From Pontibacter sp. Tf4 (GTDB lineage: Bacteria; Bacteroidota; Bacteroidia; Cytophagales; Hymenobacteraceae), in NCBI RefSeq assembly GCF_014212495.1, contig NZ_JACKZC010000005.1, forward strand, positions 62,001 through 126,000: a DNA stretch of 64,000 nucleotides, given 5' to 3'. Position numbers and translations under genes: made by a program. The notes beneath the pieces were generated by a model. That model did no database searches, was not told where the DNA came from, and worked only from the letters and a program-made list of their open reading frames with translations. Shown here one piece after another: positions 1 through 64,000 of this stretch (positions are counted from its first letter, which is position 1; the number at the start of each line of letters is the position of its first letter).

Positions 1-266
1 ATGTCGGTGCGGCGTTTTATGTAGCGCAGGCGTTTGCTCACGGCGGCCACAGGCTCATAGCGGCTGTCGGTAACGGGGCTTAATATGATTTTCTTAGCGC
101 CAGAAATCAGTTTCTCAACTATAGAAAATGCCGGCTGACCAACTATAAAATCCAGCGATTCTACATCCAGGTGCAACTCCTTTTGCAGGCGCAGCAACAG
201 CAAAGCCTTGTTGCCGGAGCTTAGGTTCAGGAGCCTGCGTCGGTAGTTCTTCAGGATGTTTTTCAT
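1..266 (-). CDS. N-terminal fragment of an AAA/DUF4011-like helicase-type protein
   Basis: The reverse strand reads open from ATG at 266 to the left edge, giving 88 codons that begin MKNILKNYRRRLLNLSSGNK. The pattern of a basic start, then LLNLSSGNKALLLLRLQ, resembles the N-terminus of large Bacteroidota AAA-domain/DUF4011 helicase-like proteins (family recognition from memory). The ATPase motifs would lie outside the window, so no activity can be confirmed. It is divergent from the hydrolase at 467, with a 200-bp AT-rich gap that should hold both promoters. Coding is well supported; the family assignment is tentative. Confidence 0.6.
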   Translation of the reverse strand, partial: MKNILKNYRRRLLNLSSGNKALLLLRLQKELHLDVESLDFIVGQPAFSIVEKLISGAKKIILSPVTDSRYEPVAAVSKRLRYIKRRTD

Positions 267-366
267 CAAAATAAATACTGTACGGTAAAGGGCAAGTTAG
301 CAGCTTTTGGCTATAGTTGGTAACGCAGGTTTATAGTCCGGAACGCTTTAATTTTAAAAAGAAGTA

Positions 367-374
367 TAGCTTTG
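367..374 (+). promoter_or_regulatory. Putative -7 box TAGCTTTG
   Basis: Exact match to the Bacteroidota -7 consensus TAnnTTTG, 93 bases before the hydrolase start. I see no good -33 TTG at the usual distance, so this is moderate support only. Confidence 0.35.
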
Positions 375-466
375 CAGATATTTTTAAAGCACCAACCCAG
401 TCATACGCAACAAATCATTCTGAATTCAGTTTTAACTAATCTCTTTTTATAGTTACAACCTGCTAC

Positions 467-1561
467 ATGCACACCCTGACTTTGCACAAGTATAAAGTTA
501 CCTATTGCCTGATTGTAATTTTGCTGCTGGCATTTGCAACTGCCTGCAATAAAAAAGACAACAAAAAAATATACCACAAAGGCGACCGCCTGGACCAATA
601 CACTACCACCAAACAATACCCCGGCAAAGTAGCCGACGAAAGCCTTGCCGACTGGAAGAAAAAAATTCCCGAAATACAGAAAGTCTCTATTACCTCCACC
701 ATCGACGGTGAAAAACAGCCCGCCTTATTTTACGATTCCGGATCTTCTGAAAAAAAACCTTTACTGGTAGTGCTGCATAGCTGGAGCAGCGAGTATCTGC
801 AGGTAGTGAGCATACCGTATGCCCTCTGGGCCAAACTGAACGACTGGGTTTTTATACAACCAAACTACCGCGGTGCTTTTAAAAAACCAGAAGCCATGGC
901 ATCTGACGTGGCTATACAGGATATTATAGATGCCGTGAATTTTTCGAAAGGAAGCGCCAACATCGACCCATCCAGAATTTACATAGTTGGCTCGTCAGGT
1001 GGGGCCATGACGGCGCTGGTTACAGCCGGAAAACACCCGGACATCTGGGCTGGTGTGGTAGCCTGGGTCCCGGTTTTCAATTTGGTTGACTGGTATAAAT
1101 TCAGCCAGAACTACCCGCACCGCGACTATAACCGCCACATCGTTACGGCCTGTGGTGGCGAACCTATTCCCGGCACCGCAGCCGCCACTGAGTGCCTGCG
1201 CCGCAGCCCGAGCTCTTACCTGCAAAATGCCAAAGGCATACCAGTGTTTTTAGCTCACGGAACGATAGATGTACTCGTACCACCAGACCATTCGGTGCGT
1301 GCCTTTAACATGCTGGTAGATTCTGCAGACCAAATACCGCAATGGCAGATGGATTCGCTGGTGATAAACAAGGAAGTACCGAAAGAAATGGTGAGCGATG
1401 GCCCCAGCAAGTATTTCGGTCCGAAAGACCCCAAGGTACTCTACACCAAACACTCGGGCGTGGTAGACTTGGTACTATACTATGGCGTGCACGATATGGC
1501 GTATAACCCCAGCCTTCTGTGGCTGAGCGAACAGCAGAAAAAGCCTGCACCAGTACAATAA
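467..1561 (+). CDS. Lipoprotein alpha/beta-hydrolase (prolyl-oligopeptidase-like)
   Basis: A 364-aa secreted esterase or peptidase of the alpha/beta-hydrolase fold. Residues 13-27 form a hydrophobic signal ending in a lipobox (AFATAC) with Cys27 as the lipid anchor, so it is probably attached to the cell envelope. The nucleophile elbow GSSGG gives Ser177; Asp268 (HGTIDVL) and His342 (YGVHDMAY) complete a plausible catalytic triad in the right order. The core resembles peptidase family S9 C-terminal domains, but there is no beta-propeller, so the substrate cannot be predicted. Its end overlaps the next gene (Nudix) if that uses the GTG at 1519, suggesting joint transcription. Confidence 0.85.
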   Translation: MHTLTLHKYKVTYCLIVILLLAFATACNKKDNKKIYHKGDRLDQYTTTKQYPGKVADESLADWKKKIPEIQKVSITSTIDGEKQPALFYDSGSSEKKPLLVVLHSWSSEYLQVVSIPYALWAKLNDWVFIQPNYRGAFKKPEAMASDVAIQDIIDAVNFSKGSANIDPSRIYIVGSSGGAMTALVTAGKHPDIWAGVVAWVPVFNLVDWYKFSQNYPHRDYNRHIVTACGGEPIPGTAAATECLRRSPSSYLQNAKGIPVFLAHGTIDVLVPPDHSVRAFNMLVDSADQIPQWQMDSLVINKEVPKEMVSDGPSKYFGPKDPKVLYTKHSGVVDLVLYYGVHDMAYNPSLLWLSEQQKKPAPVQ

Positions 1562-61401: not shown

Positions 61402-62871
61402 ATGCTCTCTGACCAGAACAAGATTGCCTTCGAAGCACTGACCTACGACGATGTGCTATTGCTCCCCGCCTATTCCGAGGTGCTACCATATAACACTGAT
61501 ACTTCTTCCTGGCTTACGCGCAACATCCGGATAAATGTGCCGCTTCTTTCAGCTGCCATGGATACCGTTACCGAAGCCGATCTGGCAATTGCCATGGCAC
61601 AGGAAGGCGGCATCGGCATTATCCACAAAAACATGTCGATCAAAAAGCAGGCAGAGCAGGTACGCAAAGTAAAACGCTCTGAAAGCGGCATGATCCTCGA
61701 CCCGATAACCCTGCCGGAAACTGCCACCCTGGGCGATGCTGTGCAAATCATGACAGACCATAAGATAGGTGGTATTCCTATAGTTGACGCAACAGGTAAG
61801 CTTACCGGCATCATCACAAACCGCGACCTGCGTTTCGAGAAAGACCTTACCCAGTCGGTAATTACAGTGATGACGAGCAAAAACCTGATAACAGCAGCAC
61901 GTGGCACTGACCTGGCCAAAGCAGAAGACATTTTACAGCAGTACAAAATAGAAAAACTGCCTGTTGTAGACGAAGACGGAAAACTGGTCGGCCTTATCAC
62001 TTACAAAGATATTCTGAAGAAAAAAGACAGACCAAACGCCTGCAAAGACGAGTATGGCCGTCTGCGTGTTGGAGCTGCCGTAGGCGTTACCCCCGATGTG
62101 ATTGACCGCGTGCAGGCCTTGGTGGAAGCCGGTGTTGACGTGATAAGCGTAGACACAGCCCATGGTCACTCGAAAGGGGTACTGGATGCAGTAAAGAAAA
62201 TAAAAAGCCTGTTCCCGGATGTAGACCTGATTGCCGGTAACATTGCCACCGCCGAGGGAGCCAGAGCGCTGGCCGATGCCGGTGCCGATGCTGTAAAAGT
62301 TGGTGTCGGGCCGGGCAGTATCTGTACCACACGTGTTATTGCAGGTATAGGCGTGCCACAGCTAACTGCCGTAATGGAAGCCGTACGAGGCCTGGAAGGG
62401 ACCGGCGTGCCGGTAATTGCAGATGGTGGCATTAAATTCTCCGGGGATATTGTAAAAGCATTGGGCGGCGGTGCCAGCACGGTTATGATCGGCTCGCTGC
62501 TGGCCGGTACCGAAGAAGCACCAGGCGAGATGGTGATCTACGAAGGTCGTAAGTACAAGACCTATCGCGGCATGGGCTCTGTTGAGGCCATGGAAGAAGG
62601 CTCGAAGGACCGTTACTTCCAGGGAAACGAGAAAGATGCCAAGAAACTGGTGCCGGAAGGCATTGTTGGCCGCGTGGCATACAAGGGCTTTGTAAGCGAA
62701 GTAATTTACCAGCTGGTGGGCGGTATAAGAGCCGGTATGGGCTACTGTGGCACTCCTACTATTCCAGATCTGCAGAAGGCGCGCATGGTGAAAATAACCG
62801 GTGCCGGTCTGCGCGAGAGCCATCCGCATGACGTACAGATCATGCGCGAGGCACCAAACTATAGCCGCTAA
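61402..62871 (+). CDS. guaB: IMP dehydrogenase
   Basis: A 489-aa enzyme that turns IMP into XMP, the first step to [20 protein letters not shown] marks the N-terminus, two CBS domains lie at about 98-205, the catalytic loop GPGSICTTR gives Cys308, and the flap region [15 protein letters not shown] follows. Complete. Start set at ATG 61402 ([13 protein letters not shown]) because the promoter overlaps the longer frame. The gene ends with TAA inside CGCTAACTATAG. Confidence 0.97.
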
Positions 62872-62890
62872 CTATAGATAAGATGTAGTA

Positions 62891-62926
62891 TAGTTGGTTG
62901 GTTTAGAAAATAGAGCCAACCAACTA
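62891..62926 (+). terminator. Probable terminator of guaB
   Basis: TAGTTGGTTGG and CCAACCAACTA around a 14-base loop, followed by TATATATTTT. Weak T-run. Confidence 0.6.
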
Positions 62927-63075
62927 TATATATTTTACGTTATGCAAGGTGATTTTCTAAACTCAGATAAGGTACCTTGCTTAAAGAGCGAAAAATTTTA
63001 CTACCTTTCATTAACGTAAACACTACACAGATCCAGAAACAGTCGCTGCAAAAACTTCGCACGGTATTCCGCTTT

Positions 63076-64000
63076 ATGCTATACAAGACTAACGCAAAAT
63101 CTTTGTTGGTTATTTCTGCTATAGTTAGCTGGGTGCTGCTACTGGGAAATGTGCTGTTGATGGCCGAGAGTGCCCGCCAGCCGGGCGCTATCAAAATGGC
63201 CTTGCCCTACATCAACAACCTGCTCATCATTGTTTTCATTCTTTCGGTCTTCATCTTTCAGCGCATCCACGCCAATAACCTGAAAGGCATCGACTTCAGC
63301 AGCTACCTCTGGAACCTGTTTTCGAGGGCAGCGGTGGCAGCCTACCTGAGCATTGCCCTGTACTTTGGCTACAAGCTGGCCACCGGATACATGCAGGTCA
63401 AATCGCCGTTTCTGCTGCACCTGGTGTACCAGGTTAACTTTGGGTTGCTGGTGTACTTCTTAGCAAAGGCATTCTATATCTGGCGGCAGTTGTTGCTCTA
63501 TCATAAAAACAAGTTCCTGCATGTGGCCTGGGAGTGGTTCGAACTGCTGTTATGCAGCACGCTCATCCTGACGCTGCTCAACTTCAACTATACCAACTAT
63601 ATTTTTCTGCCCCTTTTTGTGCTGCTGGGCTGCTATATCCTGTTTCTGTGCACAAATCTTAAATGGGTGGCTTACCTGTCGTTCAACAAAAAAAGCCGCT
63701 CTCTGGTGCTGTTAGGTGCTATCCTTGTCAGCTGCTATATCTTCACCAAGTTCTTTCAGGAGTTTTCCGATAGTCCGGAGCTGGTTATAGATTATTCGGA
63801 TGTCGGGTTTCTGATGCTGGCCATGGCATTTGTTGGACTGTACACGCTAGGGGCTTTCCTGGTCTCGTTGTTCAGTTTGCCTACCTCCAGCGTGTTTGAG
63901 CAGAAAAGCGAGGACCTGCTTAATTTCCAGCGCCTGAGCCAGTCCATTCAGCAAGGGCAAAGCGAGGCACAGGTGTACGACCTGTTGTTCGAAAGTACCA
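63076..64000 (+). CDS. Multi-spanning membrane sensor, N-terminal part (cut by window end)
   Basis: The frame is open from ATG 63076 (MLYKTNAKSLLVISAIVSWV) to the window edge, 308 codons. About eight hydrophobic segments fill residues 8-280; the last residues (FEQKSEDLLNFQRLSQSIQQ and onward to VYDLLFEST) look like the linker into a GAF domain. In Bacteroidota such proteins often end in a SpoIIE/PP2C phosphatase, but that part is outside the window. The frame continues upstream to a TTG at 62977, and the residues there (QKQSLQKLRTVFRF) look coding, so the true start may be that TTG or another codon. Confidence 0.75.
   Translation, partial: MLYKTNAKSLLVISAIVSWVLLLGNVLLMAESARQPGAIKMALPYINNLLIIVFILSVFIFQRIHANNLKGIDFSSYLWNLFSRAAVAAYLSIALYFGYKLATGYMQVKSPFLLHLVYQVNFGLLVYFLAKAFYIWRQLLLYHKNKFLHVAWEWFELLLCSTLILTLLNFNYTNYIFLPLFVLLGCYILFLCTNLKWVAYLSFNKKSRSLVLLGAILVSCYIFTKFFQEFSDSPELVIDYSDVGFLMLAMAFVGLYTLGAFLVSLFSLPTSSVFEQKSEDLLNFQRLSQSIQQGQSEAQVYDLLFEST

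Follow-up and report, generated by a model that had tools for sequence, protein, structure and literature searches.

Dialects of a highly iterated octamer on Pontibacter chromosomes: candidate self tags of a DNA-uptake type

Among the systems closest to the one considered here are the DNA uptake sequences (DUS) of Neisseriaceae and the uptake signal sequences (USS) of Pasteurellaceae, short words that number from one to several thousand per genome and affect proteins, the 2009 work of Findlay and Redfield reportedly being the one cited for these effects. Chi, the word read by AddAB or RecBCD, is octamer-sized, species-specific and tied to homologous recombination and chromosome identity, in which it resembles the word described below; the FtsK-orienting polar sequences (KOPS) are strongly polar, which that word is not. 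As far as the relevant parts of the reports go, one or a few bases distinguish the DUS of one species from those of its relatives while the core stays the same, and two DUS dialects are found in the one genome of S. muelleri (PMC3630211); USS evolve by point mutation and are under-represented in constrained genes and in DNA segments of recent acquisition (PMC7811141); and the highly iterated palindromes of cyanobacteria (HIP1 and alternate HIPs) abound in their genomes and have cognate methyltransferases (PMC4390886). Here we describe AACTATAG, an octamer spread through a 64-kb window (the whole stretch analysed) of Pontibacter sp. Tf4, whose genome (G000) comprises 4.45 Mb in 23 contigs, and its dialects across 50 Pontibacter genomes.

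The octamer was counted 48 times on the forward strand of the window and 58 times, as its complement CTATAGTT, on the other (106 strand-occurrences), where an order-2 Markov model predicts 0.95 and about 1; the hexamer CTATAG occurs 105 times (11.0 expected) and the 10-mer palindrome AACTATAGTT 17 times (0.08 expected). In the whole genome AACTATAGTT reaches 1477 copies, and a control word with reversed letters 4. Depending on the sample and the background model, the octamer is 52-114 times over-represented, a chromosome-wide excess such as characterizes DUS and USS. In 304 genes predicted by an ad hoc open-reading-frame-and-codon-score heuristic in a 464-kb sample, AACTATAGTT occurs 60 times and AACTATAG is present on the sense strand 222 times, whereas 30 shuffles among synonymous codons give 1.2 on average for the former and 21.4 for the latter. 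Because of the shuffles and the reversed-word control, codon and dinucleotide bias does not provide a full explanation; nor can chance, composition or codon usage account for the whole excess. The first-pass annotation, which had reported the palindrome as massively over-represented in genes and between them, was thus right about the excess, and neither of the outcomes that it had named as fatal (no excess outside the window, or an excess explained by codon and dinucleotide bias) was observed. The word does occur in both kinds of DNA, but not equally, its density being 4.04 per kb between and 1.15 per kb within the genes so predicted. The counts made by eye were close to ours: about 19 copies in 9361-17880 correspond to 21 octamer strand-occurrences, about nine in 60-64 kb to 11 (9 sites if two palindromes are counted once each), and the four palindromes quoted are present, within a few bases of the positions given, at 2030, 14188, 24825 and 46254. 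The spread over the window is uneven, 48001-56000 holding just one octamer, and, as had been noticed, CTATAG is absent from the NSS transporter gene (10476-12128, Pfam SNF) and rare in secDF (21585-24545, one copy). Gaps between genes of the same direction hold 96 forward and 92 reverse non-palindromic octamers, by which a polarity of transcription was rejected; the earlier judgement that the word is not a simple terminator or operator was right.

The unit of the excess is an oriented octamer with a fixed TATA core, of which Pontibacter chromosomes carry some 1-2 copies in each kb. The palindrome, which had been proposed as the unit and would be so in a system of HIP1 type, was rejected in this role. 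Over a motif-masked order-2 model AACTATAG is enriched about 114-fold, and its variants AACTATAA, AACTATAC and AACTATAT 27-, 10- and 3-fold; the least enriched variants are those altered in the central TATA. The octamer is enriched by itself, with all 16 possible next dinucleotides (6.6- to 566-fold), the 566-fold case being the full palindrome AACTATAGTT, i.e., two octamers overlapping on opposite strands; sister species use the non-palindromic AAGTATA(A) or AGGTATA(G) and often hold them at the aligned positions. The tandem AACTATAGAACTATAG recurs as well; the 464-kb sample has 16 pairs of octamers at a distance of 8 bases.

Sorted by their strongest 7-mer enrichment, with 43 of the 50 dialect calls resting on 20-27 kb each, the Pontibacter genomes have as the main word AACTATA(G) in five cases (AAC genomes, 14- to 18-fold), AAGTATA(A) in 20 (AAG genomes, 6- to 24-fold) and AGGTATA(G) in 12 (AGG genomes, 10- to 17-fold); two (G058 and G033) have the AAC and AAG words at similar levels, and 11 are motif-poor, with an enrichment of at most 5.6-fold. 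The border of the last class is thin (6.1-fold in the AAG genome G089 and 5.6-fold in G117), and the classes grade into each other, the AAC genome G018 having also AAGTATA enriched 7.7-fold and the AAG genomes G105 and G043 AACTATA 6.7- and 5.4-fold. Position 8 is mainly a purine (86% in AAC, 81% in AAG and 71% in AGG dialect samples). AACTATAGTT numbers 1087-1477 copies per genome in five genomes; three more have 330, 232 and 104 copies, and the remaining 42 have 0-28. As G was frequent at position 3 in the aligned G058, G018, G043 and G105, we traced the palindrome AAGTATACTT and the octamers AAGTATAA and AGGTATAG; 22 genomes have 80-259 copies of AAGTATACTT, the other 28 have 5-39, and the 22 are exactly the 20 AAG and the two mixed genomes.

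On a quick SecDF tree, comprising 47 of the 50 Pontibacter and one outgroup, the dialect labels cluster: they require 10 changes and shuffled labels 25.8, with none of 200 shuffles as low. AAG is not one clade on it (6 changes). A second tree, of the 9.3-21 kb region, places the AGG genomes together and G105 with G043, whereas the SecDF tree puts G105 (its secDF being L036) among the AGG genomes, a conflict likely due to inter-species recombination of secDF. Dialects that keep the core and follow the species tree, found as AAC, AAG, AGG or mixed in 39 of the 50 genomes, are a feature in common with DUS. Their clustering makes a vertically inherited protein changing in small steps likelier than a transferred methyltransferase, and a sequence-specific factor of some kind almost certainly underlies them. 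The AAC and AAG spellings are intermingled along both mixed genomes (like neighbours number 133 of 229, with 124 expected, in G058, and 44 of 79, with 40 expected, in G033) and not arranged in blocks, for which reason a mosaic origin of these genomes by recombination was rejected; S. muelleri, as portrayed in parts of PMC3630211, offers a parallel.

At orthologous positions the word is in part rewritten. All 178 AACTATA sites of the window entered the statistics (rows for single sites extend up to position 25,000), Blast pieces shorter than 250 or 200 bp were dropped, and fractions refer to aligned rows. The AGG genomes hold AGGTATA at 23 of 316 aligned sites and at 12 of 23,008 shifted positions (140-fold), and the AAG genomes hold AAGTATA at 78 of 657 and at 50 of 44,903, respectively (107-fold); that is, most aligned sites are unshared, and the shared ones match the resident dialect far above chance. 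Of the sites at which octamers of G000 could be aligned, G085 has the exact word at 30 of 58 (24% for composition-matched permuted control words), the mixed G058 at 10 of 55 (22% for control words) and G043 at 1 of 45 (11% for control words). Gap-free aligned sites differ by substitution, with G/C changes at position 3 being the commonest in G058, G018, G043 and G105. At the coding site 9842, where frames were translated for gap-free rows only, AAC-TAT (Asn-Tyr) stands in G000, G085 and G099, i.e., in three of the five AAC genomes, AAG-TAT or AAG-TAC (Lys-Tyr) in the mixed genomes and the whole set of 20 AAG genomes, and AGG-TAT (Arg-Tyr) in 9 of the 11 AGG genomes aligned here; the exceptions are G121 (CGC-TAT) and G091 (AGG-AAT) among the latter, and G018 (AAG-TAT) and G119 (AGG-TTT) among the AAC genomes. 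At the intergenic site 21150 AGGTATA is present in 9 of the 12 AGG genomes and AAGTATA in just 4 of the 20 AAG genomes.

As to the predicted proteins, Asn-Tyr, Thr-Ile and Tyr-Ser occur in AAC genomes 1.50, 1.46 and 1.32 times as often as expected (1.24, 1.05 and 0.92 in the motif-poor set), while in AAG genomes the same ratios for Lys-Tyr, Ser-Ile and Tyr-Thr are 1.96, 1.47 and 1.85 (1.22, 1.13 and 1.52 in the motif-poor set, where Tyr-Thr is high, too). The pools comprised 2 of 5 AAC, 16 of 20 AAG, 11 of 12 AGG and 9 of 11 motif-poor genomes, the first three serving also for the dialect enrichments, and the numbers on amino-acid pairs are illustrative, as a single orthologous region, taken from many species, makes up most of the AAG and AGG pools. 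The pressure of the word is strong enough to shift some amino-acid pairs. Origin by point mutation is shared with USS, judging by the sections of PMC7811141 that deal with it, and scarcity in constrained genes and acquired DNA may be, the density between genes and the samples of plasmid-sized contigs agreeing with it and the shared genes of the window not; the reshaping of proteins agrees with both USS and DUS, with exceptions in the sites at alignment gaps and in the AGG genomes, as given below.

We favour the view that the octamers are self tags of the DNA-uptake type, spread by biased uptake and recombination like the DUS dialects of Neisseria but without pilus-type ATPases, and assign it a probability of about 0.45; of the explanations listed by the first-pass annotation, an uptake system is the one that best fits the dialects and the rewriting in place. 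Also in its favour are the genome-wide abundance, the mixed genomes, the shifted amino-acid pairs, the lower density in genes (with NSS and secDF nearly free of CTATAG), the poverty of the plasmid-sized contigs, the presence of ComEC in all 50 genomes and the preference of Riemerella columbina, another Bacteroidota species, for its own DNA. Word-bearing DNA would be favoured by a protein that acts in trans, recognises DNA sequence-specifically and is passed on vertically while its preference slowly shifts, so that in natural transformation fragments with the resident dialect would be preferentially imported and recombined into the chromosome, and the word would accumulate by molecular drive wherever protein function tolerates it. 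A shift in the preference of the receptor would rewrite the existing near-matches first, and loss of the system would let the word decay. As receptor the model demands an outer-membrane DNA importer of Bacteroidota type. A type IV pilin is unlikely in this role, since the only pilus part searched for, the pilus-type and type II secretion ATPase family (PF00437), was not found at full length in any of the 50 genomes. All 50 genomes yield fragment matches to PF00437 (38-66 profile positions, three marginally over the cut-off), the best of each genome sitting in a frame of about 640-700 aa. DUS and USS, with their type IV pilus machinery and pilin receptor, differ from the Pontibacter word in this respect, as well as in phylum and in the core (CTG, and not TATA in a word of 8 bases); the system would thus act like an uptake-sequence system, yet we do not count it among the pilin-dependent ones.

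Apart from the missing ATPase, a number of observations weigh against uptake. The octamers are clumped (119 gaps of 50-100 bp observed and 69 expected), in part within intergenic repeat mosaics, of which there are 13 clusters with 6-10 motif copies per 200-550 bp, whereas an excerpt of PMC7811141 ascribes a 'relatively even distribution' to the USS of H. influenzae. Shared genes of the window show no enrichment, with 1.71 octamers per kb in 32 genes common to most of six relatives and 1.83 per kb in 4 others. Motif sites lie at alignment gaps in 9 of 58 cases in G085 and in 15 of 45 in G043, compared with 6% and 7% for control words, and some turnover therefore proceeds by insertion or deletion. 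Some orthologous sites hold the dialect of another genome, motif-poor genomes included: at 9842 the motif-poor G097, G013 and G115 have AAG-TAT or AGG-TAT, and at 21150 three further genomes (G018, G105 and G129) have AGGTATA, while three motif-poor ones have dialect words. In AGG genomes it is not Arg-Tyr (0.97) but Lys-Tyr (1.54) that is raised. The scarcity of the word on plasmid-sized contigs, by contrast, speaks for uptake: AAGTATAA occurs 1, 3 and 2 times in samples of 20 kb from three second contigs (74-204 kb long), and 17, 39 and 23 times in equal chromosomal samples of the same genomes. These contigs, plasmids by their size only, may be recent arrivals, however.

The protein that recognises the word did not emerge from the search, which covered one receptor candidate and one methyltransferase family. 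ComEC is present in all 50 genomes and, being equally present in the motif-poor ones, does not track the word; nor was a report of competence for any Pontibacter found in the open-access literature. In two genomes the ComEC domain contains an internal stop (G046:C76:160505-161305 and G089:C1:2771217-2771876), and G089 also has the weakest motif enrichment among the AAG genomes. According to PMC8459023, Riemerella depends for transformation on ComEC, DprA, ComF and RecA and, among further proteins, on one of the outer membrane and on a DUF5689 surface protein, the authors seeing no likeness of these last to known machinery; TonB mutants are impaired in transformation, one of them via iron supply, as a section of PMC8383284 relates. 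The need of Riemerella for the DUF5689 protein led us to search for this family in 150 genomes. As a receptor (Riemerella RA0C_RS04920 type) it was rejected, and this, too, counts against uptake: a short copy occurs in just 12 of the 39 motif-bearing Pontibacter, in two unrelated gene contexts, namely beside a SusD-like gene in eight (G000, G085, G099, G018, G119, G058, G038 and G061) and as a different type in a different context in four (G113, G095, G103 and G101). Since 27 of the 39 are without either short type, DUF5689 is not the common determinant; at the sensitivity of the search, none of the 11 motif-poor Pontibacter has a short copy. SusD-like neighbours are found at 25 of 30 DUF5689 loci, and 26 of the 30 copies either fall outside the receptor type or have a SusD-like gene alongside, the arrangement seen in nutrient operons.

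The strongest rival to uptake, in our opinion an unlikely one nevertheless, is that the octamer is Chi-like, i.e., read by an AddAB (RexAB-type) helicase-nuclease in break repair and protecting the own chromosome, with dialects following changes in AddB. A PD-(D/E)XK protein resembling AddB is indeed present in all 50 genomes (NCBIfam AddB-type models match it well below their cut-offs), and its C-terminal third evolved fast before the AACTATAG clade: in a comparison of 12 genomes it has diverged from outgroups 1.58 times as far as has that of G043, a ratio of 1.33 being found for the whole protein and of 0.70-1.31 for 12 window proteins, and 52 of its 77 clade-fixed differences fall in columns 700-1000. 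This third was, however, chosen after seeing the data and is the nuclease domain, whereas Chi is read in the helicase-like part of AddB. Four columns of the AddB-like protein split the five AAC from the two mixed genomes, but nine window proteins also have 0-3 such columns each. Motif-poor genomes keep the same protein, and, like ComEC, it is uninformative on the presence of the word because it is universal. The scarcity of the word on plasmid-sized contigs would agree with Chi, which is enriched on chromosomes rather than plasmids, as would the leading-strand excess of the G000 octamers (483:372, 1.3:1). The polarity is inconsistent, though, being 350:309 (1.1:1) in G085, 330:208 in the AAG fragments (18 of 20 genomes, not independent as they are largely one orthologous region in different species) and reversed, 122:160, in the AGG fragments (11 of 12 genomes); with a bias in one contig, a weak one in a closed relative and disagreement across dialects, a replication polarity of the KOPS or strong Chi kind was rejected. 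Moreover, the palindrome, useless as a polar signal, is the most enriched form, and the rewriting of amino acids seems too strong for the weak selection acting on each Chi site. The very strong enrichment and the change of dialect within one genus likewise distinguish the Pontibacter word from Chi. As a separate observation, the nuclease domain of the AddB-like protein (L267:373-3333 and orthologues L268-L278) is 54-62% identical between G000, G119 and G033 on the one side and five other Pontibacter on the other, which among themselves are 69-94% identical; in two genomes a second AddAB-like pair (about 1100 and 959 aa) lies beside the universal AddB-like gene (G123:C13:33024-36438 and G046:C54:158071-161480).

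That the octamers are binding sites of an abundant chromosome-organising or nucleoid protein, each kept by selection, appears improbable. Their presence throughout the chromosome, on both strands, in coding and intergenic DNA, their scarcity in the samples of plasmid-sized contigs and the conservation of some orthologous positions fit such a protein, but an essential binder should neither have been deprived of its sites in 11 of 50 species nor have switched dialect within a genus, and redundant clusters like those of the mosaics bring no obvious added benefit. Methyltransferases usually arrive by transfer and with unrelated specificities, which speaks against a HIP1-like origin as well, in which an orphan methyltransferase and a methylation-dependent mismatch repair bias would make and keep the word, as Elhai proposed for cyanobacteria; we rate it quite improbable. 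The first-pass annotation had likened the palindrome to HIP1, and as a genome-wide, highly iterated word with variants between species it does invite the comparison, abundant words with cognate methyltransferases having a precedent, at least in the passages of PMC4390886 devoted to them, and the patchy distribution and alternative words recalling the alternate HIPs. In contrast to the palindromic HIPs, the Pontibacter units are octamers without palindromic symmetry, and their spelling varies by one or two bases inside a single genus. PF01555, the only methyltransferase family tested, is absent from four of the five AACTATAG genomes, and its presence in 11 of the 18 genomes tested shows no association with the word, so the suggestion of a methylase gained no support. 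A repair bias within the cell should also mark resident plasmids, but the plasmid-sized contigs are poor in the word. Hardly credible, finally, is a passive mutational, dinucleotide or codon bias or the spread of a word-carrying intergenic repeat family, in spite of the highest density between genes, the existence of mosaic repeats with the word and the excess of motif sites at alignment gaps over control words; many aligned copies differ by substitution, and as a full explanation passive bias is refuted by the reversed control, the synonymous shuffles and the dialect rewriting at orthologous sites.

Similar words are present in other genera of the family. Among 150 family genomes searched, ACCTAGGG has 2808-3106 copies in three g4 genomes (G004, G015 and G030), 2643, 896 and 337 copies in three g5 genomes and at most 90 in all the remaining ones, and GGGTAGGG has 740-3521 copies in eight g5 genomes and 62-482 elsewhere. 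The g4 and g5 octamers are patchy. They share TA at positions 4-5 with the Pontibacter words, and this likeness, together with the common family, suggests that all of them may belong to one system. A self-DNA recognition extending over the whole of Hymenobacteraceae, with NNNTANNN octamers (AACTATAG, AAGTATAA, AGGTATAG, ACCTAGGG, GGGTAGGG) read by a non-pilin receptor whose drifting specificity would drag along thousands of sites and some of the encoded proteins, is possible, if doubtful. In g5 a DUF5689 operon is found in nine genomes, five of them among the 10 motif-bearing of 66 (P=0.0027, with cut-offs set after seeing the data), an association that is a lead and no more. The g5 word GGGTAGGG matches the KOPS consensus of E. 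coli. In the g3 genomes G003 and G014, among the matches listed, all main-contig copies of GGGTAGGG lie on the + strand within the first 2 Mb or so, a KOPS-like polarity separate from the excess in g5.

If the octamers are uptake words, Pontibacter would represent a third, unrelated bacterial group with sequence-specific DNA uptake, apparently without type IV pili, and, should the family-wide system be real, its words would be, to our knowledge, the first uptake-sequence dialects outside Neisseriaceae and Pasteurellaceae, served by a new kind of DNA importer. A preference for self DNA has been seen in Bacteroidota, namely in Riemerella columbina, where, according to PMC7965970, a search for words gave only A/T-rich strings and no convincing signal. 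No description of a word of the Pontibacter kind, or of a highly iterated palindrome, in Bacteroidota was found among titles in the open-access literature. A Chi-like or methylation-linked function would imply a recognition enzyme that changes specificity within one genus, which would be unusual as well. In any case the 50 Pontibacter genomes constitute a graded natural experiment on the gain, rewriting and loss of a word and on the editing of proteins by it, and the recognising protein is now a testable target, as the dialect of most species is known.

Table 1. Full palindromes, selected octamer sites and intergenic clusters in the window.
Feature	Position	Strand	Remarks
AACTATAGTT	2030..2039		two overlapping octamers
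AACTATAGTT	7505..7514		exact in G085, G099, G058 and G018 (4 of 4 genomes aligned there, 7 compared)
AACTATAGTT	14188..14197		within intergenic 14115-14232, which recurs inverted at 24790-24907
AACTATAGTT	14271..14280		
AACTATAGTT	24741..24750		
AACTATAGTT	24773..24782		
AACTATAGTT	24825..24834		
AACTATAGTT	27554..27563		
AACTATAGTT	29724..29733		preserved in G099, G018 and G119; a single mismatch in G085; unrecognisable in G058, G043 and G105
AACTATAGTT	33776..33785		
AACTATAGTT	33911..33920		aligned with gaps: TATACTT in G058 and G105, TATATTT in G043
AACTATAGTT	37723..37732		unchanged in G085 and G099; G043, a G-dialect genome, reads AAGTATAGTT
AACTATAGTT	42918..42927		
AACTATAGTT	46254..46263		
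AACTATAGTT	47319..47328		
AACTATAGTT	60515..60524		
AACTATAGTT	61191..61200		
Coding octamer	1659..1666	+	AGGTATA in 5 of 10 aligned AGG genomes (G095, G101, G091, G071, G038)
Coding octamer	9841..9848	-	gene 9366-10307; amino-acid pair mostly follows dialect
Intergenic octamer	21149..21156	-	dialect variants in aligned genomes
Intergenic cluster	14049..14280		7 motif sites
Intergenic cluster	24741..25176		9 motif sites

The intergenic mosaics consist of short hairpin modules spaced by octamers. They occupy 14014-14290 and 24740-25180 in the window and 11 further stretches in the sampled 280 kb of contig C1 (e.g., C1:35020-35470); their hairpin density is 15 per kb, compared with 4.8 per kb in other intergenic DNA, and some of the hairpins are paired octamers. 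A perfect 30-nt inverted repeat with a 3-nt loop at 55866-55928 holds AACTATAC and its complement. Other words are abundant in single relatives, as counted on both strands of 20 kb in L159 of G056, L158 of G011 and L138 of G002: GGGGCCCC (36 copies, 3.6 expected), AAGTAACC (10 and 0.4) and TATATATA (20 and 1.8).

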